The notes beneath the pieces were generated by a model. The model had not been told where the DNA came from. It was given only the letters and a program-made list of their open reading frames with translations, and did no database searches. From the NCBI GenBank assembly GCA_949287815.1, contig CASEHS010000018.1, forward strand, positions 1-32,526: a DNA stretch of 32,526 nucleotides, given 5' to 3'. Source of the stretch: an uncultured Bacillota bacterium. Lineage in GTDB: Bacteria; Bacillota; Clostridia; Christensenellales; Borkfalkiaceae. Shown here piece by piece: positions 11,652 to 32,526 of this stretch (positions within the stretch are counted from its first letter, which is position 1; the number at the start of each line of letters is the position of its first letter). Both the position numbers and the translations under genes were made by a program.

Positions 11652-11664
11652 AGAGGATTTGATT

Positions 11665-12270
11665 TTGAAAGGGATCATACTTCTCAACGGTGAACCCTAT
11701 GAAGGGCAGATAAATAGGGATAAAGAGGATTTCGTAGTCTGTGCCGACGGTGCGCTCAGTTGGGCAAAAGGAAAAGTTCGCATAGATGCCTGCGCGGGGG
11801 ATTTTGATTCGCTCGGTTATATTCCCGAAGCGGCGATCGTTTATCCTTCCGAAAAGGATTATACGGACGGTGAGATCGCACTGTTTATGCTCATCGATAA
11901 AGGTTACAAAGAGATAGAAATTTACGGCGGCGGCGGAAAAAGGGAAGACCATTTTTTCGGAAATCTTCAACTTCTTTATGCCGCTTATTTAAAAGGGGTA
12001 AAAGCCGTTCTTAAAACCGCGTATTCGGATATTACTTGCGAAAGCGGAAAAATTGTTTTTGACGGGGAAAAGGGCAGAACCGTTTCACTTGCACCTGTCG
12101 GACTTTCGGCTCATATAATAAAAAGTGAAGGATTGAAGTACCCTTTGAAAGACCTTACGCTGTCGGCAGGGACTTGCCGAGGTGTAAGCAATATCGTCGT
12201 TTCCGATCACGCGTTTGCGGATTGTGCAGAGGGTGTGCTTTTTGTCTTTCGAATAAATAGTGCGGAGTGA
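11665..12270 (+). CDS. thiN: Thiamine pyrophosphokinase
   Basis: The enzyme makes thiamine diphosphate from thiamine and ATP. The product has 201 residues, near the family norm. Conserved elements are CADGAL, GDFDSLG (Mg/ATP-site aspartates), DYTDGEIAL (D-x-T-D motif), the glycine-rich GGGGKREDHFFGN, and a C-terminal beta domain with SLAPVG and GVSN that binds thiamine. The TTG at 11665 is chosen because AGAGG at 11652-11656 is then 8 bases away; an in-frame TTG at 11659 is only two bases from that site. It is 13 bp after rpe in the same operon. Confidence 0.9.
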   Translation: MKGIILLNGEPYEGQINRDKEDFVVCADGALSWAKGKVRIDACAGDFDSLGYIPEAAIVYPSEKDYTDGEIALFMLIDKGYKEIEIYGGGGKREDHFFGNLQLLYAAYLKGVKAVLKTAYSDITCESGKIVFDGEKGRTVSLAPVGLSAHIIKSEGLKYPLKDLTLSAGTCRGVSNIVVSDHAFADCAEGVLFVFRINSAE

Positions 12271-12395
12271 ATTTTGAAAATTTATTGTTTCAGACCGCCT
12301 GCGGCGGTGCGCTTTGTTCTGCGCCTGTTTGTTCGTACGGGAGATAAGAAGGGTTGATTTGTCTAAAATATTTTAAATGAATGATCGTTATCAGT

Positions 12396-12440
12396 AAAAC
12401 GCGCCGTCTTGCCGAAATGCAAGACGGCGCGTTTTATTTA
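12396..12440. terminator. Strong intrinsic terminator closing the rpe-thiN operon
   Basis: A perfect 17-bp inverted repeat: AAAACGCGCCGTCTTGC (12396-12412), loop CGAAAT, and its complement (12419-12435). It ends in TTTT with a further AT tract. The A-run on the left side means it may act in both directions. Confidence 0.9.
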
Positions 12441-12553
12441 AAAATTAAGCGTAAGAATTGTTTATTTTAAAAAATTATTGATTTTATGATAAAAAGATAA
12501 CCGCTGATTTATTGTAAAAAATACACAAAGATGTAAACGAATGTTTGCAGTAT

Positions 12554-12758
12554 TGTTGATAATTTTTTTTGATTTGTACAAAAATAAAGAAGAAAAATGT
12601 CGAAAAGAGAAAAAACAAGCCAAAATTGTGGATAACTTTTAAGGTTTTATTGGCATACAGGCTTATTTTGTTAATTTATACAAGCCTTTTTGTGGATAAA
12701 CGGGAAAAGAATGTGCATAAGTTTAAGTTATCCACACCTTTTTAAGAATTTGTCCACA
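12554..12758. other. Cluster of DnaA-box sequences
   Basis: Three exact copies of the DnaA box TTATCCACA occur: 12627-12635 and 12691-12699 (both as TGTGGATAA on the plus strand) and 12728-12736 (direct). One-mismatch forms are TGTTGATAA (12554-12562), TGTGCATAA (12712-12720) and TTGTCCACA (12750-12758). The pair at 12712 and 12728 is an inverted repeat with a 7-bp gap, and the boxes at 12728 and 12750 are 22 bp apart, about two helical turns. They lie in AT-rich DNA, as in replication origins and in DnaA-titrating or DnaA-reactivating sites. All upstream genes point toward the cluster, which argues against a main bidirectional origin. Confidence 0.72.
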
Positions 12759-12855
12759 AAGATAAAAAATTTAAAACGGTTGCGCATTTTTTTAAAAGAA
12801 ATGTAATCAGAGATAAAAGCGGCTCGGATTACGCAAAAAAAATAAATAAAACCGA

Positions 12856-12883
12856 TTGAATTTTTAGCAAAATATGATATAAT
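12856..12883 (+). promoter_or_regulatory. Promoter of the SPFH/zinc-ribbon gene
   Basis: TTGAAT (12856-12861), a 16-bp spacer and TATAAT (12878-12883), with TGA (12875-12877) as an extended -10. Initiation near 12890 leaves a short leader before AGAGGGG and the ATG at 12924. Confidence 0.72.
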
Positions 12884-12923
12884 AAATAAAACAGGTTCAA
12901 CTGAAAGTGTGAGAGGGGAAGTT

Positions 12924-13940
12924 ATGGCTATCTTTTTAAAAATAATTGAATGGAAGTCAGATAATTCTGAGAAACTTGTACATAAAGTTCAGATCGACGG
13001 AAGAGATATCAATTCGGGAAGTAAAATAGTGGTAAGACCGTCTCAAAAAGCCGTATTCGTTCATAAAGGTCAAATTGCGGACGTTTTTGATGAAGGTACG
13101 TATTCACTGAAAACCGAAATCTTGCCTATTTTGTCTAAACTCGCGGGAATTGCTTACGGATTTAAAACGCCTATCACCGTAGATTTATATTTTGTGAATA
13201 TGAATCTGCTTACGGATATGAAGTGGGGTACGGCAACGCCTGTTATACTTCGTGATCCTGAATTCGGAATGGTTCGCGTGACAGGCTACGGCGCTTTTGC
13301 GTTTCGGGTAGGCGACTGTGAAGTATTCTTGCGGGAATTGTTCGGAACGAAATCTTCTTTTGAAACTGCCGATATCGTAGGGTATCTTAAAAAGATCGTT
13401 TTGTCGGGACTGAACGATTGTCTTGGACAGAGTGGGCTTTCAGTGCTTGATCTTGCGGCAAACACGCTTGAATTGCAGCAGGAGATCACGAAAGTGGTCA
13501 AAGAGAAATTTGTCGCGCTCGGGCTTGTCCTTTGTGATTTTCTCATTGAAAATCTTTCTGTTCCCGCGGAGGTGCAGAAAGCGATCGATGAGCGTACAAA
13601 ATACGGTATCGTCGGGGATAAGACGGATGTGATGATGAAAGTCGCTGCGGCTCAGGCAATGCAGGATGCGGCAAAAAATCCCGGAAGCGGAGCATCGTTT
13701 GTCGGGGCAGGCATGGGCTTGGGGCTCGGTGCGGAATTCGGTAAAGCCATGAGCGATGCAATGAAACCTGCGCAGAATAAGGAAGGAAAGTTTTGCCCTG
13801 CGTGTGGCGCGTCCGTTCCCGCAAAAGCAAAATTTTGTACGGAGTGCGGTTCTTCGCTTGGCGGTGGGGTGTGCCCCAAATGCGGCGCAAAAGTGGACGG
13901 GAAGGCTAAGTTTTGTCCTGAATGCGGCGGAAAGCTTTGA
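12924..13940 (+). CDS. SPFH-domain protein with C-terminal double zinc ribbon
   Basis: This 338-residue protein has an SPFH/band-7-like N-terminal region (about residues 1-220) of the type often annotated as YdjI or 'virion core protein-like'. A short Ala/Gly-rich linker follows (about 235-280). The C-terminus carries two CxxC...CxxC zinc ribbons (CPACG/CTECG, then CPKCG/CPECG). There is no signal peptide or clear membrane segment, so it is probably cytoplasmic or peripheral. SPFH proteins assemble at membranes; the role of this subfamily is poorly known. The ATG at 12924 is chosen because AGAGGGG ends five bases upstream; a GTG at 12909 lacks such a site. It has its own promoter after the DnaA-box region. 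Confidence 0.8.
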   Translation: MAIFLKIIEWKSDNSEKLVHKVQIDGRDINSGSKIVVRPSQKAVFVHKGQIADVFDEGTYSLKTEILPILSKLAGIAYGFKTPITVDLYFVNMNLLTDMKWGTATPVILRDPEFGMVRVTGYGAFAFRVGDCEVFLRELFGTKSSFETADIVGYLKKIVLSGLNDCLGQSGLSVLDLAANTLELQQEITKVVKEKFVALGLVLCDFLIENLSVPAEVQKAIDERTKYGIVGDKTDVMMKVAAAQAMQDAAKNPGSGASFVGAGMGLGLGAEFGKAMSDAMKPAQNKEGKFCPACGASVPAKAKFCTECGSSLGGGVCPKCGAKVDGKAKFCPECGGKL

Positions 13941-24458: not shown

Positions 24459-25904
24459 ATGCAGGACAGGCAGATCGTTAGTCGGATTTTAGAAATTGAG
24501 GCAGAACAGCTTCGCCGCACAAAAAAACCTGCGCTTTTTCTTTATAATTCGGGGCGGAAAAAACATAAAAAACAAATTGCTTTCCATAAATGTAAAAAGC
24601 GAAATCGCTGGGTATTCGGCGGAAACAGAAGCGGTAAAACAGAATGCGGCGCTGTTGAATGCGTATATTTTGCCCGCGGCGTTCATCCTTACAGAAAAAA
24701 CAGGAATTCGGTGTTTGGTTGGGTGGTTTCTCTTTCGCAGCAAGTACAGCGCGACGTGGCTCAGAAAAAAATTTTGCAATACCTTGATTCTGCATGGATC
24801 GAAGATATCGTAATGCTTTCAGGAAGAAAGGATTCTCCCGATTCAGGGGTGATAGATCAGATAAGAATACGCAACGTGTTCGGCGGTACGTCCGTGATCG
24901 GCTTCAAAAGTTGTGATCAGGGCAGGGAAAAGTTTCAGGGCAGTTCCCTTGATTTTGTCTGGTTCGACGAAGAACCCCCGAAAGATATTTACGATGAATG
25001 CCGTATGCGCGTCATGGATAAAAAGGGTGATATTTTCGGGACTATGACGCCGCTCAAAGGTCTGACTTTCGTATTTGATGAGATCTATATGAACAAGCGC
25101 GGCGATCCGGAAATCTGGTATGAGTTCATGGAATGGGCGGATAATCCTTATCTTCCTGCGGGCGAGGCGGAAGCCATGAATGCGGCACTCGGGGAAAAGG
25201 AACTGGAAAGCAGAAGATACGGAAAATTCTGCGTCAATGAAGGACTCGTTTATCCCGAATTTGACGAAAGAGTACACGTGATCGAGCCTTTTCCGATACC
25301 TTTTGAGTGGCAGGATAATATTTCTATCGACCCGGGACTAAACAATCCGCTATCAGCCCACTGGTATTGCGTGGATTATGACGGGAACGTATATGTGGTT
25401 GCGGAACATTACGAAGCAAAAAAAGATATCGATTACCATGCACAAAAAATCAAAGAGATCAGCCGCGCTATCGGTTGGCATACCGATCAGAAAGGACGGA
25501 TATGCGCACTGATCGATTCGGCGGCAAATCAGAGAACGCTCGCAAGTTCAAAAAGCGTGAGCGAATTGTTTTATGAACGGGGGATTTTGGTGAACGCGAA
25601 CGTAAATAAAGACTTGTTTGCTGGGATTGCGCGCGTAAAAAGTTATTTTCGCGGCAATTCCGCTTCGGGTGCGGGAATTTATATTTTTGAAAACTGTGTT
25701 CATCTTATCCGCGAACTCAAAGGATATTTTTGGGGCGAGGGAGATATTCCGAGAAAAAAAGACGATCACGCTTTGGACGAACTGAGGTATTATCTCATGA
25801 CAAAACCGAAAAACGAAGCGCCTGCCTTGCCGCAGACCGCTGTGCAGAAAGATAAAATGCGGCTGATACGCAAACTTTCGGGCAAAAGGAGATCGGGTGA
25901 ATGA
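24459..25904 (+). CDS. terL: Phage terminase large subunit
   Basis: The motor and nuclease that packs phage DNA into proheads. Over 481 residues it shows Walker A GGNRSGKT (about 54-61), Walker B FVWFDEEP (about 168-175), a coupling motif GTMTPLKG, and a C-terminal RNase H-like nuclease with acidic motifs SIDPG, LIDSAA and DDHALDEL. It follows AAAATCGGAGG. It is the first gene of the compact head module, and no clear promoter was seen in the 153 bp upstream. A typical small subunit gene is not found directly before it. Confidence 0.92.
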   Translation: MQDRQIVSRILEIEAEQLRRTKKPALFLYNSGRKKHKKQIAFHKCKKRNRWVFGGNRSGKTECGAVECVYFARGVHPYRKNRNSVFGWVVSLSQQVQRDVAQKKILQYLDSAWIEDIVMLSGRKDSPDSGVIDQIRIRNVFGGTSVIGFKSCDQGREKFQGSSLDFVWFDEEPPKDIYDECRMRVMDKKGDIFGTMTPLKGLTFVFDEIYMNKRGDPEIWYEFMEWADNPYLPAGEAEAMNAALGEKELESRRYGKFCVNEGLVYPEFDERVHVIEPFPIPFEWQDNISIDPGLNNPLSAHWYCVDYDGNVYVVAEHYEAKKDIDYHAQKIKEISRAIGWHTDQKGRICALIDSAANQRTLASSKSVSELFYERGILVNANVNKDLFAGIARVKSYFRGNSASGAGIYIFENCVHLIRELKGYFWGEGDIPRKKDDHALDELRYYLMTKPKNEAPALPQTAVQKDKMRLIRKLSGKRRSGE

Positions 25905-26160
25905 AGAATTAAAGGAGGCGTTGTACCGCCGCGCGCTCGGGTTTGAATCGGACGAGGTGGTGGAAGAGTACAGTTTTTGCGAAGGCGAAGCCGTATTGTT
26001 GAAGAGAAAAGTGACCAAAAAGCACGTTCCGCCCGATATTTCGGCGGCTAAAATGTTGCTGGACGGCGAAAAACCCGTAAAAGAAATGAGCGACGCGGAG
26101 CTGGAAGGGGAAAAAGAGCGGTTGCTCTTGCTTTTAAAAAGCAAGGAGGGAAAAAATTGA
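25897..26160 (+). CDS. Small phage protein between terminase and portal
   Basis: An 87-residue acidic/basic protein starting with GTG, overlapping the terL stop by 8 bases and preceded by AAAGGAGA. The segment KRKVTKKHVPPDISAAKMLL resembles a stretch common near the C-terminus of small terminase subunits and related HTH phage proteins (VPPDTTA-x-x-x-L). No HTH is visible here, so it may be a cut-down relative or a different head-module protein. A Leu-rich helix lies at the end. Function unknown. Confidence 0.6.
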   Translation: MNEELKEALYRRALGFESDEVVEEYSFCEGEAVLLKRKVTKKHVPPDISAAKMLLDGEKPVKEMSDAELEGEKERLLLLLKSKEGKN

Positions 26161-28127
26161 AAATAAAGGAAATCACAAAAATATATGGTGAAAAAGGCGA
26201 ATCGGCGGAATCGATCGTCGGCGCAAAGAACAGCGGGTACGATAAAAAAATGGCCGAACGCATCGTGCGCGAAGTAAAAGAGAATTTTGCCGTGCGTCAA
26301 TCGGAACGGAGAATGCTGGAAAGAAACTGGGAACTCAATATGAATTTTCTGGCAGGAAACCAGTACTGCGATATCGGCGCTTCGGGCGAGATTGTAGAAG
26401 AAGAACCGAGATTTTATTGGCAGTACAGGCGTGTGTTCAATCATATCGCCCCCGCGATCGATACGCGCTGTGCAAAACTTTCAAGAGTAAGACCGCAGCT
26501 TATCGTGCGCGCGGCGAGCGATCAGGAAGGAGATCTTCGTACCGCCAAAATTTCGAGCAATGTTTTAAAATCGGTCTGCGAGGAAAATTCCTTCGAGGAA
26601 GTGATGAGTAAAGCGACCGTTTGGAGCGAAACGTGCGGCACGTCTTTTTACAAGATCGTCTGGGACGGTACTGCGGGAAGATGCTTAGGGCAAAATGAGT
26701 CGGGTTCGGTATACGAGGGCGCAGTACGCATTTCGGCTGTGCCGCCGTTTGAAATTTATCCTGAAAACTTAGGCTGTGAAAATATAGAAGATCAGCCGAG
26801 CATTCTGCACGTGAAGGCTTTGCCTGTATCGGAAATCGAGGAAAAATACGGCGTGAAAATTGCCGGCAGAGATATATCCGAGTTTTCTTTTGCGCCTTGT
26901 TCTTCGTCGCAGAATTTTGTAGGGGCGTTTGGCGTAAGATCGGGCAACACGCTGAAAAACTGTGAGTTGGTCATCGAGCGTTACGAAAAACCGACTTCCG
27001 CTTTTCCGCAGGGCAGATTTATTGTTGTAGCAGGCAATGAACTTGTTTATGTCGGTGATCTTCCTTATCTGAACGGTGCATCGGGTACGCGAACTTATCC
27101 GTTTGTCAAACAATGCGCGATCGAACTTTCCGGTAGTTTTTTCGGAAACAGCATTATAGACAGAATGATCCCCGTTCAGCGCGCTTTCAATGCTCTCAAA
27201 AACAGAACGCATGAATTTATCAACCGCCTCACGATGGGTATTCTTGCAGTGGAGGACGGCTCGGTAGATACGGACGATCTTGCGGAAGAAGGACTTCCGC
27301 CCGGAAAAGTGATCGTTTACCGCCAGGGCGCAAAACCGCCCGAACTTTTGGGGAAAGATTCCATTCCTTCCGAGTTTTTCGAAGAGGAAGAGCGGCTTCT
27401 CAACGAATTTATTCAGGTCAGCGGTGTCAGTGAGATCAGTTCAACGTCGCAGAACCGTACTCAGGTCACGAGTGCAACGGGGTTGCAGCTTCTCATCGAT
27501 CTGGACGATACCAGACTCGCCGTTACGACAGACAGCATCCGTCGCGCTGTAAAAAAAGCAGGTCAGCACATTTTAAGGCTGATGCGCGAATTTGCGGGAG
27601 AAAAACGCTTGATGCGTATGACGGGTGAAGGCGGAAAAGTAGACCTTTATTATTTCGGGGCAAGCGATATTTCTTCGGATGATGTTGTTTTTGTTTCAGA
27701 TACCGAAGACGCTCGTACTCCCTCGGAAAGCCGTTCTCTCATCTACGAAATTTATAAGATGGGATTGCTGTCCGATGAGGAAGGTAAAATTTCGGTGGAA
27801 ACAAAGAGACGGGTACTCAACGCGCTCGGTTACGGTGGGTTGGAAAATGCAAGAGGGCTTGCACAGTTGCACGCCAATAAGGCATCGGAAGAAAATTTGC
27901 GCCTGATGAAAGAATACGTCGGTGCGGATGCTTATGACGATGCCAAAATTCATACCGAATCGCATATTCGGTTCTTGCTGTCAGATGAATTCCGCGACGG
28001 CACGCCTCAGGCAAAAGACAGGTTTATAAAACATCTCGGCGAACATGCAAAATACGCCGAAAAAGGTTTGGCTGTTCAAAACAGGCAATCCGGTTCTGAC
28101 GGAAACAACACTTCCGCACAGAACTGA
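26157..28127 (+). CDS. Phage portal protein (P22-like)
   Basis: A 656-residue protein in the position and size range of P22-type portal proteins (gp1, 725 residues), which form the dodecameric channel through which DNA enters the head. The N-terminal region (VRQSERRMLERNWELNMNFL, WQYRRVFNHIAPAIDT) and the RVRPQLIVRA segment are typical. A central segment IDRMIPVQRAFNALKNRTHE and a later QVTSATGLQLLID fit the stem and wing. The C-terminal end is helical and polar. It starts with TTG after AAGGAGGG and shares four bases with the stop of the preceding gene. Fold assignment is by motif and neighbours. Confidence 0.85.
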   Translation: MKIKEITKIYGEKGESAESIVGAKNSGYDKKMAERIVREVKENFAVRQSERRMLERNWELNMNFLAGNQYCDIGASGEIVEEEPRFYWQYRRVFNHIAPAIDTRCAKLSRVRPQLIVRAASDQEGDLRTAKISSNVLKSVCEENSFEEVMSKATVWSETCGTSFYKIVWDGTAGRCLGQNESGSVYEGAVRISAVPPFEIYPENLGCENIEDQPSILHVKALPVSEIEEKYGVKIAGRDISEFSFAPCSSSQNFVGAFGVRSGNTLKNCELVIERYEKPTSAFPQGRFIVVAGNELVYVGDLPYLNGASGTRTYPFVKQCAIELSGSFFGNSIIDRMIPVQRAFNALKNRTHEFINRLTMGILAVEDGSVDTDDLAEEGLPPGKVIVYRQGAKPPELLGKDSIPSEFFEEEERLLNEFIQVSGVSEISSTSQNRTQVTSATGLQLLIDLDDTRLAVTTDSIRRAVKKAGQHILRLMREFAGEKRLMRMTGEGGKVDLYYFGASDISSDDVVFVSDTEDARTPSESRSLIYEIYKMGLLSDEEGKISVETKRRVLNALGYGGLENARGLAQLHANKASEENLRLMKEYVGADAYDDAKIHTESHIRFLLSDEFRDGTPQAKDRFIKHLGEHAKYAEKGLAVQNRQSGSDGNNTSAQN

Positions 28128-28156
28128 GTTTACTATATATTTTTTGGGAGGTAGTT

Positions 28157-28642
28157 ATGGAGAAGGAGAACATAGACACGACAAAGGCGTCGGCGCAAGG
28201 AACGGAAGTTCAGATGGAAATAGGCGCGGCAGTGCCTGCGGATGGATTGGGAAAATTCAAGAGCGTAGATGCCCTTCTGAACGCGTACAATTCCTTGGAG
28301 GCGGAGTTTACCCGCCGCAGTCAACGCCTTCGGGAGTTGGAGGGTGCTGCAACGAAAAACGGTAATGCGGGTTTGGACGATAACGTTTCGCCGTCCTTGC
28401 CGCAGAGCGAAAGTCCGTCAGCGGCAAGGGAACAAGCCCCTTTTCAGAAAGGGGAAGAAGATACGGGAGTTTCGCAAGAAGTCAGAGACGCAATTATTGC
28501 GGAATATCTCGCTTCGGTAAGAAAGGATGCCCCTTACCTGATGTCGGGCGGCGCATCCTTTGTATCCGCACCCGTAAACAGGGTGAAAACTTTGGAAGAC
28601 GCGGCTGCTGCCGCAGCGGAACTTTTCCGCAAAAAAAGTTGA
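28157..28642 (+). CDS. Probable phage capsid scaffolding protein
   Basis: A 161-residue polar, largely helical protein between portal and capsid genes, the usual place for a scaffold. It has the common scaffold opening LGKFKSVDALLNAYNSLEAE (about 30-49), which leads into a predicted coiled coil, a disordered Ser/Gln/Pro-rich middle, and a C-terminal Ala-rich helix. Scaffolds direct prohead assembly and then leave. The start follows GGGAGGT. No sequence motif proves the function. Confidence 0.7.
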   Translation: MEKENIDTTKASAQGTEVQMEIGAAVPADGLGKFKSVDALLNAYNSLEAEFTRRSQRLRELEGAATKNGNAGLDDNVSPSLPQSESPSAAREQAPFQKGEEDTGVSQEVRDAIIAEYLASVRKDAPYLMSGGASFVSAPVNRVKTLEDAAAAAAELFRKKS

Positions 28643-28643
28643 C

Positions 28644-28716
28644 CGATGTTTTTAAAATTAAGAAAAACATCGTCAGTAGCGGCTATAAATAAAGCTGCTA
28701 TATGCAGAATTTTCTG
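28644..28716 (+). promoter_or_regulatory. Three successive hairpins in the capsid gene leader
   Basis: CGATGTTTTT (28644-28653) pairs with AAAAACATCG (28663-28672). TAGCGGCT (28677-28684) pairs with AGCTGCTA (28693-28700) with one wobble. CAGAA (28705-28709) pairs with TTCTG (28712-28716). Together they fill most of the 111-bp gap. They may stabilise capsid mRNA or set its level. Confidence 0.6.
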
Positions 28717-28753
28717 TAATTAATCAATGAATAAGGAGCGAAACGAATATTTT

Positions 28754-29914
28754 ATGGTTACAATGACAAGTGCTGACAGCGCATTAAAAAGTGTATATCT
28801 CGGAGTGGTGGCAGAACAACTCAATACTGCGGCAAATCCTTTGCTCGCAAAAATCAAACAGTCCACTGCGGATGTTTGGGGTAAAGAAGTCCGTCGCCTC
28901 GCTCAGTATGGCGTGAACGGCGGTGTCGGCGCAGGCACGGAAGAGGGGGATCTCCCTTCGGCAGCGGGCAATAATTACGAACAGTTTGTAACGACCCTTA
29001 AAAACCTTTACGGTACGATTGAGATCAGCGACAAAGCGGTTCGCGCTTCCGAAAACAATATCGGTGCGTTTGTAAATCTTCTCAATGCTGAAATGGACGG
29101 TTTGATCCGTTCTTCTTCTTTCAACTTCGGCAGAATGCTGTTCGGTGACGGCAGCGGTGTGCTTTGTAAAGTATCGAGCGTTACGGGAAATACCGTTACT
29201 GCGGACAGCGTAAAAAATCTGATCGAAGGTATGACTGTTGATTTCTTGGACGGTGAATCTGTATCGGTTGCAGGCAGAAGGATCACAGCCGTCGACAGAG
29301 AGACAAAGACGTTTACTGTATCGGGCGCAGCGCTCGACGGCAGCGTAGATGCCGATGACAAAGTTTGTGTGCAGGGCTCTTATAAACTCGAACTTACGGG
29401 TCTTGGTGCGATCTTCCAGTCGACGGGCAGTCTGTACGGTCTCGACAGAGCAACGCATAAATGGATGATCCCTTATATGAAGAGCGATGTCGGCGAAATC
29501 GATGAGACAGTCATTCAGACGGCGATCGACAGACTTGAAGAGCGTGCGGGAAGCCGTGTCGATTTTATCGTATGCAGCTGGGGTGTCAAGAGAGCGTTGC
29601 AGAAGTACTTTGCTCAGTATAAGCAGATGACGGATGTTACCGAACTTGCGGGCGGTTACCGTGCGATCACTTATAACGGAATTCCCATTGTGGCGGACAG
29701 GTTCTGTCCTGACGGTACGATGTATTTGCTGAATACTTCCGACTTCTGCCTGCATCAGCTTTGCGACTGGAAGTGGTTGGAAGGAGATGACGGAAAAGTC
29801 ATGAAACAGGTTCCCGGTAAACCTTTATATACGGCAACGCTGGTCAAGTATGCCGACCTTATCTGTACCCGTCCTTGCGGACAGGCAATGCTCTCCGGAA
29901 TCACGGAAGCGTAA
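28754..29914 (+). CDS. Phage major capsid protein (HK97 fold, P22-like coat)
   Basis: A product of about 386 residues in the coat position of the module. Visible features are an N-terminal helix (LKSVYLGVVAEQLNTAANPL), a GAGTEEGDLPSA loop, the NLYGTIEISDKAVRASENN segment common to HK97-fold capsids, an Ig-like or insertion domain rich in Thr/Val strands (about 145-215), and a C-terminal P-domain segment (YNGIPIVADRFCPDGTMYLL). The start is uncertain: ATG 28754 has AAGGAG 15 bases upstream, rather far; an upstream ATG at 28727 would add nine residues but has the binding site inside the coding region. The gene is followed at once by a strong terminator, as befits a highly made protein. Confidence 0.85.
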   Translation: MVTMTSADSALKSVYLGVVAEQLNTAANPLLAKIKQSTADVWGKEVRRLAQYGVNGGVGAGTEEGDLPSAAGNNYEQFVTTLKNLYGTIEISDKAVRASENNIGAFVNLLNAEMDGLIRSSSFNFGRMLFGDGSGVLCKVSSVTGNTVTADSVKNLIEGMTVDFLDGESVSVAGRRITAVDRETKTFTVSGAALDGSVDADDKVCVQGSYKLELTGLGAIFQSTGSLYGLDRATHKWMIPYMKSDVGEIDETVIQTAIDRLEERAGSRVDFIVCSWGVKRALQKYFAQYKQMTDVTELAGGYRAITYNGIPIVADRFCPDGTMYLLNTSDFCLHQLCDWKWLEGDDGKVMKQVPGKPLYTATLVKYADLICTRPCGQAMLSGITEA

Positions 29915-29932
29915 GTTCGGGCATAGCTTTTT

Positions 29933-29964
29933 GCACGGAAAGCCGTTTTACGGTTATTTCGTGC
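29933..29964 (+). terminator. Nested hairpin upstream of the post-capsid terminator
   Basis: GCACG (29933-29937) pairs with CGTGC (29960-29964), AAA with TTT inside it, and CCGT (29943-29946) with ACGG (29950-29953). It stacks just before the terminator and may protect or reinforce the 3' end of capsid mRNA. Confidence 0.5.
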
Positions 29965-29965
29965 G

Positions 29966-29999
29966 GCGCGGGGGCGTTTCGCGCCTCCGCGCTTTTTTT
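29966..29999 (+). terminator. Strong intrinsic terminator after the capsid gene
   Basis: GCGCGGGGGCG (29966-29976), loop TTTCG, and CGCCTCCGCGC (29982-29992) with one wobble, followed by seven T's (29993-29999). It lies inside the head module, so partial read-through would set the ratio of capsid to head-completion proteins. Confidence 0.9.
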
Positions 30000-30052
30000 A
30001 GCGGGCATTTCGGAAAATGATCTGAAAATTCGCCCGGAAAAAGGAGGAAAAT

Positions 30053-30601
30053 ATGCTGGTCAAAAAAATTCTGGAAACAGCCGCTGCGCTTGCAGGGCGG
30101 CGCGATCTTGCCGATTATTACGCAGGCAAGGGAGGAACTGATCTTTCCGGGCTGGAAGCCGATGCTGAAATGATGTTAAGATGTTTTAATCTCACGGAAA
30201 ACGAGGTCGCACTCGACTATATTCCCATTGATGCAAGTACTCGCGTTGTAAGTTCGGGGTTGATTCCTTTTTCCGATCTCAACGGGGCAGCGACGGAAAT
30301 TATCGCGGTGAGGGATTTACAAGGAAAAAAACTCGATTTTCGCCTGACGGAAGAGGGGATCGTCTGCAGAGCTGGTGAGGTTTCGGTGGAATATTACCGT
30401 AAACCCGATGTTAAGAAAGAGAGCGATCATACCGATTTTCCGAATGGGGAAAGGTTTCTTTCATTCGGTACGGCGTGTGAGTTTTCTTTGATGGAAGGTC
30501 AGTTCGACCGCGCTTCCGCGCTGGATGTTCGGTATAAGGACGCGCTTACTGCGGCAAGGCGGGATAAGAGCATACTGTTGAAAGAGAGGGGATGGATATG
30601 A
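30053..30601 (+). CDS. Putative phage head completion / head-tail adaptor protein (gp4-like)
   Basis: A 182-residue protein just after the capsid gene, where P22-like phages encode the portal-binding adaptor gp4. The N-terminal part is helical (VKKILETAAALAG, EADAEMMLRCFNLTENEVALDY). The middle is beta-rich. The C-terminal ACEFSLMEGQFDRASALDVR resembles the helix of gp4-like adaptors. The start follows AAAGGAGG. Its stop overlaps the next gene by four bases (ATGA). Position, size and weak motif support the assignment; proof would need profile comparison. Confidence 0.6.
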   Translation: MLVKKILETAAALAGRRDLADYYAGKGGTDLSGLEADAEMMLRCFNLTENEVALDYIPIDASTRVVSSGLIPFSDLNGAATEIIAVRDLQGKKLDFRLTEEGIVCRAGEVSVEYYRKPDVKKESDHTDFPNGERFLSFGTACEFSLMEGQFDRASALDVRYKDALTAARRDKSILLKERGWI

Positions 30602-31953
30602 GATTTATTGATAAATCTCCCGTCAGCTTTCACGTATCCCAAAAAACCGTAACCACAGATGCGCTTTACGGGCTCGGGATAGACCGAAAAAAAGGCGGGG
30701 CGGCAGAATGTATAGGGTTTGACGGGAAGGAAGGTGTTTTGCGCCCCGGCTATTCGGCGACAGAAATCAAAATCGGCGAGCAAACTCTTGTTTTGCCCGA
30801 AAACTGCGAACCTGCGGAGTTTTGGACGGTTGCAGGATGGAATGTAAATATTCTTCTTGCCGATAAGAGCGGGAAAATGTACATCTGTACAGACGGACAT
30901 ACGTTCACGCTTTCCGAAGTTACTTTCAGCAGAAAGCCAGAGGGCGTTTATGCTTATGAAAACGGAGAAGTGATCGTCCTTTCTGATACGGAAAAAACGG
31001 CGGTGTTTTCAGAGGGGACGCTTACTCTTCGTGAGGATATTCCGCCTTTTGAAAAAGCGGTATTTTTCAGGGAAAGATTGTGGATACTTTCTCCGTCCGA
31101 ACAAAACCGCTTGCGTTACTGTGCGCCGCTCAGTATTTCTGATTTTACCGAAGAGATCGGTAAAGGCGGATATATAGATTTTCCCGACAGACGCGGTCGG
31201 ATAATTGCGCTTTTACCCGAAGAAAACGGTATTTATATCGTACGGCGTTTCGGAATACAGAAACTCGCCTGTGAGGGTGATCCTTTAAAGTTCTGTCTCT
31301 ATGATGAAAAATCTGTCAACAGCGAGATCTATGCAAATACCATTTGCGAAGAAAACGGGATACTTTATTTTCTGACGGAAAGCGGTTTGGCTTCGTTTGA
31401 TACAAAAGTAAAAATGCTTTATCCGTCTGTCTTTCCCGAAGGTACAGATTTTTCTGCGGCAACTGCCGATGTTTGCAGAGGAGAATACATTTTCTCTTTA
31501 AAAAACGGCAAAGCAAAAGATGAGCCCGGCTTTTTAGGCGTGTTCAGGACGGACGGAGGCGGCGGTTATTTCCTAAGAAAAAATGTTGAGGGATTAAAAA
31601 CGTCGGATATCGGAACGGGGATGCGCGTTGTGTTTGTTTCGGATGGAAAATTTTGCTCGTTGGTGCCGTTTTCTTCTTCTGACCGCGGCGTGCAGCACAG
31701 GCTATGGAAAAGTGCGCCTAGCCTTCCTTTCGGCGGAATAAAATGTATGCTGACACGTATTTGGGTGCAGGGCAGAGGTATGTTTTTCGTTACGGTAAAA
31801 TCGGAGACGGGAACGAGAAGATTTGTCATGCAGGGCGATGGGGATTGTTATAGACAGGTCAATCTGCCAGGAAATGCTTTTACGTTTATCTTCGAGACGG
31901 ACGGTGTCGCGGAAATATCCGGATTTACGGCACTCTATACATCTTCAGAATGA
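30598..31953 (+). CDS. Putative phage DNA-stabilisation / tail hub protein (P22 gp10-like)
   Basis: A 451-residue beta-rich protein with no signal peptide, starting at the second ATG (30598). That start is chosen because GAGAGGG is then seven bases away and it overlaps the previous stop in an ATGA; the ATG at 30592 is too close. Repeating strand-turn units suggest a beta-propeller. The segment ERLWILSPSEQNRLRYC then SISDFTE is typical of gp10-like tail proteins, which have a phrase meaning roughly 'R-L-W... N-R-L-x-Y/F-S... D-F'. P22 gp10 (472 residues) closes the head and joins the tail. The gene order portal, scaffold, coat, gp4-like, gp10-like agrees. Confidence 0.6.
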   Translation: MRFIDKSPVSFHVSQKTVTTDALYGLGIDRKKGGAAECIGFDGKEGVLRPGYSATEIKIGEQTLVLPENCEPAEFWTVAGWNVNILLADKSGKMYICTDGHTFTLSEVTFSRKPEGVYAYENGEVIVLSDTEKTAVFSEGTLTLREDIPPFEKAVFFRERLWILSPSEQNRLRYCAPLSISDFTEEIGKGGYIDFPDRRGRIIALLPEENGIYIVRRFGIQKLACEGDPLKFCLYDEKSVNSEIYANTICEENGILYFLTESGLASFDTKVKMLYPSVFPEGTDFSAATADVCRGEYIFSLKNGKAKDEPGFLGVFRTDGGGGYFLRKNVEGLKTSDIGTGMRVVFVSDGKFCSLVPFSSSDRGVQHRLWKSAPSLPFGGIKCMLTRIWVQGRGMFFVTVKSETGTRRFVMQGDGDCYRQVNLPGNAFTFIFETDGVAEISGFTALYTSSE

Positions 31954-31965
31954 GGAGGTAAGACA

Positions 31966-32430
31966 ATGACGCCTGAAGAATTGGAAGAAGCTGTTGAAAA
32001 GCTGATCAATGAAGCCAACAAGGAATCGGAGAATGCCAGGCTGGATTATGAAGACAAAGTCCTTGAACAAAAATATTCGGCAATAGCAAAGAGAATTGCA
32101 AGGTCAAGTATTTTACAGGGTGTGTTGGAGCGACTGAAAAAAGAGTTCGACGAAATTACTGCCCGTATACAGCGGGAGCTGGATGAAAGTCTGGAAGCTC
32201 TTTATGCAGAGGGGGAACAGGGCGGAGGAGGTTCCGGCAGTACGGATGCGCCTTATGAAGTAGATTACTCTTTGCCGATGCGGGACAGGTATGTTACGGT
32301 CAAAAATTATTACCTTGCATACGAGGATAAACAGCAGGCTGTCGATGACTATCTTGTAGACGAGGTCGCAAAAAATTATCTGGGACCATATTATCCCTAT
32401 ATTTACGATTTGTTGATGACTTACGTCTGA
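31966..32430 (+). CDS. Small coiled-coil phage protein of unknown function
   Basis: A 154-residue protein with a highly charged N-terminal coiled coil (about residues 1-85: TPEELEEAVEKLINEANKES, later RLKKEFDEITARIQRELDES), a Gly/Ser-rich linker (about 86-95) and a Tyr-rich C-terminal part (KNYYLAYEDKQ, YLGPYYPYIYDLLMTY). The start follows GAGGAGGT, 12 bp after the gp10-like gene. By position it could be a tail needle (gp26-like) or a virion-associated protein; no family was recognised. Confidence 0.6.
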   Translation: MTPEELEEAVEKLINEANKESENARLDYEDKVLEQKYSAIAKRIARSSILQGVLERLKKEFDEITARIQRELDESLEALYAEGEQGGGGSGSTDAPYEVDYSLPMRDRYVTVKNYYLAYEDKQQAVDDYLVDEVAKNYLGPYYPYIYDLLMTYV

Positions 32431-32447
32431 TCAGGGGAATTTAATTG

Positions 32448-32473
32448 CCGCCGCGACTTTGTCGCGGCGGTTT
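32448..32473 (+). terminator. GC-rich hairpin after the last gene, possible terminator
   Basis: CCGCCGCGAC (32448-32457), loop TTT, and GTCGCGGCGG (32461-32470) form a perfect 10-bp stem, followed by only three T's. It may terminate the head-module transcript or be a conserved repeat. The remaining 50 bp to the window end show no gene. Confidence 0.55.
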
Positions 32474-32526
32474 CAGCGTTTGTACGTATTTTAAAATGTT
32501 TGAAACGCTTGCATGCCCGCTTTCAA

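Follow-up and report, generated by a model that had tools for sequence, protein, structure and literature searches.

Bipartite chromosomal origins are known from Firmicutes, with DnaA boxes before and after dnaA and one of the two clusters devoid of an unwinding site. In Bacillus subtilis, DnaA is reported to bind at both of these places (PMC4447404), and deletion of six DnaA-box clusters has been described to cause early initiation, strongly so only with all six gone (PMC5295017). The E. coli locus datA is reported to lie downstream of a tRNA operon (PMC10950094) and to depend on the spacing of its boxes, on essential boxes that all point in one direction, and on IHF, and the cores of the DARS loci are described as opposite-oriented boxes at fixed spacing (PMC5742627). 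According to a 2026 review, B. subtilis has neither datA nor DARS, and whether any regulators balance DnaA-ADP against DnaA-ATP in that organism is unknown (PMC13220808). Our limited literature searches, which cannot prove absence from print, found no work on DnaA in Christensenellales, only work on the C. difficile origin under conserved or regulatory DnaA-box clusters in Clostridia and, judged by titles, nothing on datA or DnaA titration in Clostridium.

The locus described here lies in a window of 32,526 nucleotides (the whole stretch of DNA that was analysed) from a draft genome of the genus Candidatus Borkfalkia (G000; 94 contigs, 89.8% complete). A preliminary description had reported three exact and three one-mismatch TTATCCACA DnaA boxes at 12554-12758 with a 22-bp phased pair, in an AT-rich intergenic setting far from dnaA and dnaN. 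All of this held up: the six boxes are confirmed and fall within a gap of 653 bp with 30% GC (12271-12923) between a thiamine pyrophosphokinase gene (tpk) and an SPFH gene, the phased pair consists of the boxes at 12728 and 12750 (both plus strand), and none of the 29 scanned window ORFs is dnaA or dnaN, which are found on contigs C23 and C12, respectively. Among 2000 dinucleotide-preserving shuffles of the gap (means of 0.008 exact boxes and 0.17 within one mismatch, maxima of 1 and 2), none reached the observed box counts. Genome-wide, exact boxes on both strands number 31, compared to 16 occurrences of the reversed word, and nowhere else in G000 do three exact boxes fall inside 300 bp; the comparable density elsewhere in the genome that would have spoken against the preliminary description was not seen. 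In having several boxes in above-chance number and away from oriC, the locus resembles the DnaA-box clusters outside oriC of B. subtilis. A smaller cluster, with two exact boxes and another two that have one mismatch, sits on the plus strand of contig C21 (L064:13553-13710) between genes for a histidine kinase (minus) and an ABC transporter (plus). The features of the window locus are as follows:

11659-12270, plus strand: thiamine pyrophosphokinase gene (tpk), final gene of the left operon (Pfam TPK_catalytic, 2.6e-16)
12393-12438, plus strand: hairpin 3' of tpk with a 20-bp stem and U-rich tail (-34.1 kcal/mol, z -8.8)
12530-12758, plus strand: whole element (profile match at 12530-12736, then the last plus-strand box to 12758)
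12535-12546, no strand assigned: palindrome AAACGAATGTTT, read directly
12554-12562, minus strand: DnaA box R1, TTATCAACA, then a T8-GA run
12627-12635, minus strand: exact DnaA box in slot R2, 73 bp from R1
12691-12699, minus strand: exact DnaA box 64 bp past the box at 12627, in no usual slot of other copies
12712-12720, minus strand: DnaA box R4, TTATGCACA
12728-12736, plus strand: exact DnaA box R5 on the opposite strand, 16 bp from the R4 start
12750-12758, plus strand: DnaA box R7, TTGTCCACA, 22 bp past R5
12856-12883, plus strand: promoter-like TTGAAT-16-TATAAT, its second hexamer preceded by TG (consensus match only)
12924-13940, plus strand: SPFH/Band 7 protein gene, product with C-terminal zinc ribbons (Pfam Band_7_1, 2.2e-70)

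The hairpin, matched in stability by none of 200 shuffles, is likely a terminator separating the left operon from the element; a consensus scan did not list it and gave two other stem-loops at 12294-12325, and the 15 Rfam matches within 12001-13100, all under the gathering score, fall at or near it. Upstream of the SPFH gene, the promoter-like site follows ca. 100 bp past the last box, as one of 5 consensus matches in the region versus 3.2 expected. A tRNA scan of the window had no hits. At its far end (24459-32526), the window carries a phage-like block with a terminase large subunit, a P22-type portal, and a weak match to an SU10-type capsid that stays under its cut-off, after which the contig ends.

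To find related copies, we searched 40 genomes of the genus with a spaced-box pattern that matched 12 of them (reversed control, 0). As the pattern failed to pick up G000 and G007, we included their copies manually, to give the 14 copies used for profile building; because 12 of these 14 had been chosen by box pattern, the box spacing of the training copies is partly given by construction. The resulting R1 profile scores the window copy, itself among the 14, at 93.8 bits (E 9.8e-27) and detects an element of ca. 210 bp in 34/40 Candidatus Borkfalkia genomes (E<=3.7e-18), 20 of which had not been used in building it. The conservation in relatives on which the preliminary description had made its reading depend is thus found, for boxes and spacing alike. 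A strong match is lacking in six genomes: in G002, the near-full-length match is weak (E 1e-5), and in G004, G053, G021, G047, and G024 there are fragments at most. All six are drafts, but the element may truly have been lost. The preliminary description had also considered the origin of an autonomous element, which is not supported, given the housekeeping neighbours, the genus-wide presence, and the number of strong copies, which is one in 33 out of 34 element-bearing genomes. The remaining genome, G016, has two copies (L069 and L346), one with an SPFH gene and the other with tRNA-Arg and a sirtuin gene, and with its 5% contamination this draft may be a mixed bin.

Beyond the genus, 12 of 396 genomes sampled across the order match at E<=1e-7 under stricter filters, all within the family (two in this genus, six in genus g20, and four in genus g18), and 20 further listed family genomes show no match at 1e-7. 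Copies in the other genera have two minus-strand boxes 73-74 or 84-85 bp apart in nine out of ten cases, with no dnaA, dnaN, rsmG, or sirtuin gene in their 1.5-kb flanks. Scanning for the partial pattern R3-R4-R5 gave 110 stretches from many phyla, and because dnaA, dnaN, or rsmG falls within the retrieved piece for 70 of these, this partial pattern is insufficient to define the element; the R1 profile, run on 56 of the 110, matched 13 strongly (E<=8.1e-25), with the next match partial at E 2e-11. Judged by sequence, the element is thus a non-coding unit of ca. 210 bp conserved across Candidatus Borkfalkia.

Its parts follow one order: a palindrome AACNNNNGTT, R1, a T-run, R2, a weak middle box, R3, a second T-run, a spacer, R4, and plus-strand boxes at distances from R4 of ca. 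16, 26, and 38 bp, some of which individual copies lack. R1, R2, the middle box, and R3 form a left array, all on the minus strand and with spacings of ca. 10-11 and 21 bp; across the spacer, this array faces the right plus-strand array of R5 and its followers. Over 36 copies (one from each of 34 genomes, a second from G016, and the weak match in G002), the palindrome is present in 30, at 17-18 bp before the R1 start where R1 was scored. Conservation sets in sharply 23 bp before R1; between positions -20 and +20 relative to R1 it amounts to 9.8-16.4 bits per 10 bp, versus 0.6-1.3 in the 100 bp leftward (35 copies). The distance from R1 to R3, searched between 80 and 100 bp with G002 dropped and with the G000 value resting on a degenerate R3, is 93-96 bp in 30/35 copies and 83-84 bp in the other five; that from R3 to R5, read by eye, is mostly 79-82 bp with a few at 70 and 92. 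Box order and spacing are rigid, with spacing shifts near one helical turn. Over 16 bases, the sequence after R1 is similar to that after R3 (mean identity 0.53, versus 0.27 at other offsets), which suggests a repeated module. The window copy is atypical in its order, with the degenerate R3 slot and the extra exact box at 12691, and its R1-R5 distance is kept (174 bp versus 175 bp in G011); by its flanks, the box at 12627 may be R3 after a two-turn deletion instead of R2.

Between R1 and R2, part of the copies carry TGTYGA-like motifs that could possibly be Spo0A sites, and Spo0A was found in 33/40 genomes. We also considered the palindrome as a LexA/SOS box and found no support for this reading: GAACRNRYGTTC is not enriched (6 versus 15 for the reversed word in G000, 9 versus 12 in G007), and the ORFs beside the two GAACRNRYGTTC sites that were scanned are a Mob_Pre gene and others encoding proteins without Pfam match.

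The neighbours of the element were counted over the 36 copies, some on contigs that end early. A divergent tRNA-Arg(acg) gene lies 107-347 bp to the left in 20/36 copies, though not in the window copy, and a SIR2 (sirtuin) gene lies to the right in 22; SPFH is the right neighbour in five (window and four related ones) and tpk the left neighbour in two (window and G010). DnaA might mainly regulate transcription of the flanking genes (tRNA-Arg and sirtuin, here SPFH), as at sda and ywlC in B. subtilis, an explanation that we consider unlikely overall but that survives best among the alternatives. The adjoining divergent tRNA-Arg and the promoter-like site after the window copy favor it, as does the reported regulation of sda, ywlC, and further genes by DnaA at clusters of this kind in B. 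subtilis (PMC4447404); a described link of DnaA acetylation to CobB in E. coli (PMC4971506) would lend meaning to the sirtuin neighbour. However, the element is retained without its usual neighbours: no sirtuin was found on the right in 14/36 copies (one of them, that of G013, has only 398 bp there, with the sirtuin on another contig) and no tRNA-Arg on the left in 16/36 (two of them, those of G049 and G048, have <410 bp there). Sirtuin genes elsewhere come without a box cluster, too. Searched in 17 genomes, the sirtuin was present in 12 and not found in G000 or G010, and 12 sirtuin loci apart from the element (leaving out the second G016 copy) were devoid of exact boxes and, within the retrieved flanks, contained two one-mismatch boxes at most. 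The rsmG tree is too unresolved for counting neighbour changes. Regarding SPFH, which the preliminary description had proposed as possibly DnaA-responsive, orthologues in G011, G007, and G016 have 4-6 exact boxes close upstream. As SPFH adjoins only 5/36 copies on the right and 25 other, more distant SPFH-matched loci (L036-L060) have no box cluster, such a response is not supported as the general function; a local DnaA effect on SPFH in the window may exist. On the rsmG contig, ca. 6-11 kb off, SPFH without box cluster occurs in G002, G004, G006, G009, G012, G017, G021, G022, and G023 (within L036-L050). That more than half of the copies share such neighbours still allows for a transcriptional role.

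Alternatively, the element could be a DARS-like site where DnaA-ADP assembles on facing boxes, releases ADP, and fresh DnaA-ATP is made. A DARS core consists of three boxes, with box I opposite to boxes II and III. The opposite orientation of R4 and R5 at fixed spacing is a feature named for DARS cores (PMC5742627), but the left array, with its boxes in one direction at ca. 10-11 and 21 bp, looks more like a head-to-tail array, and we regard this function as improbable.

The preliminary description had noted that the cluster looks like a replication origin and doubted this for good reason. As the sole DnaA domain that we found in G000 is encoded on contig C23 beside mnmG, dnaA lies apart from dnaN, and within the first 20 kb of C23 there is a single exact box, ca. 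5 kb from dnaA. No exact box was found at this dnaA locus or at 17 others of the genus, 17 of these 18 loci reaching only some hundred bases upstream. On C12, by contrast, dnaN and rsmG are arranged back to back around a gap with one exact and several one-mismatch boxes, left of which the GC skew is near zero to negative and right of which it is positive, so that this gap likely is oriC of G000, on a contig separate from the cluster. The dnaN of G000 (L072:8402-9435) appears as two overlapping minus-strand frames, by sequencing error or a real break. In further genomes, the skew of the rsmG region turns from negative to positive in 14/20 (nearly flat in one of them) and does not in the other six. 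An oriC at dnaN/rsmG with dnaA elsewhere matters for dnaA-based origin prediction.

The trio motif of an unwinding site, in which DnaA-trios come after a DnaA box (in most cases at a distance of 12 bp), is present in 21/25 rsmG loci including that of G000, compared to none of 36 elements with 1.7-kb flanks, 21 tpk loci, and 17 SPFH loci of like lengths. These counts come from a looser scan (box with <=2 mismatches, 0-21 bp, three trios) that was designed after a stricter one had given 4/25 rsmG loci and 0/36 elements; its first run, with shorter element stretches, gave 18/21 rsmG loci (without G016, G018, G015, and G001) and again 0/36. The GC skew is positive in every 1-kb segment of the window, with no sign change at the cluster, and flanks in element orientation, some of them short, are positive on both sides in 23/36 copies, negative in six, and mixed in seven, i.e., of one sign in 29. 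With no skew change, no trio motif, and a likely dnaN/rsmG origin on another contig, a reading of the cluster as oriC is not supported.

That the cluster is a chromosomal origin, or the detached half of a bipartite origin working with the dnaN/rsmG oriC, is quite improbable in our view. E. coli oriC has its boxes in a left-minus/right-plus layout, which the element resembles; the R3-R4-R5 stretches with dnaA, dnaN, or rsmG and the box-free dnaA loci apart from dnaN would fit as well. In G054 (L326), the only genome giving a distance, element and oriC are distinct on one contig ca. 3.6 kb apart. Against this stand the trio and skew results and the location of element and rsmG on different contigs in 22 of the 23 genomes with both located, though these contigs are short. 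Finally, chance drift to functionless boxes, for which the gap is AT-rich enough, is practically negligible in light of the shuffles and the genus-wide conservation of order and spacing.

We therefore favor, with reasonable though far from full confidence and by analogy, a stand-alone control locus on which DnaA would oligomerise to be titrated or inactivated, akin to datA or the B. subtilis clusters; the datA/DARS-like titration or reactivation that the preliminary description had listed as an alternative appears to be the best fit. Such an element would probably hold or tune DnaA and help set the timing of chromosome copying. DnaA would form an ordered oligomer along a single face of its double helix and would be drawn, perhaps specifically in its active form, off oriC at dnaN/rsmG, and this withdrawal would delay or time initiation. 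The element would either just hold DnaA or also alter its nucleotide state, and its sequence fits both. DnaA binding, titration, and nucleotide switching are all deduced from the box consensus and from published accounts of datA, of DARS, and of the clusters in B. subtilis. A bolder version, which we find doubtful, would make the element a Gram-positive counterpart of datA/DARS, i.e., a dedicated, helically phased, position-independent machine that would switch DnaA between nucleotide states, with a second protein at the palindrome as its gate, and that would have evolved where dnaA had left oriC. A rigid single DnaA element amid differing neighbours in a genus of gut Clostridia suggests a dedicated control locus, and it offers a defined 210-bp sequence for in vitro study.

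Among known systems, the bipartite oriC of Firmicutes is similar in having a box cluster without unwinding site in a genome that holds another one with it, but the element is not beside dnaA and, except in G054, lies off the oriC contig. Opposite-oriented boxes at constant spacing, as reported for E. coli DARS1 and DARS2 (PMC5742627), occur in the element as well, which differs from these by more boxes and a long left array. Like datA, it is a stand-alone cluster, often beside tRNA-Arg as datA is reported 3' of a tRNA operon; the essential boxes of datA are reported to point one way, and in the element left minus-strand and right plus-strand arrays face each other, with the adjoining tRNA-Arg pointing away. 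Further hallmarks of datA are an IHF site between its boxes and DnaA-ATP hydrolysis. The DnaA-box clusters of B. subtilis, from the same phylum, likewise lie outside oriC. Their neighbours, as given in PMC4447404, differ from those of the element, and it is set apart from them by one strong copy per genome, a rigid inner spacing, a palindrome, and its presence in 34 out of 40 genomes of the genus.
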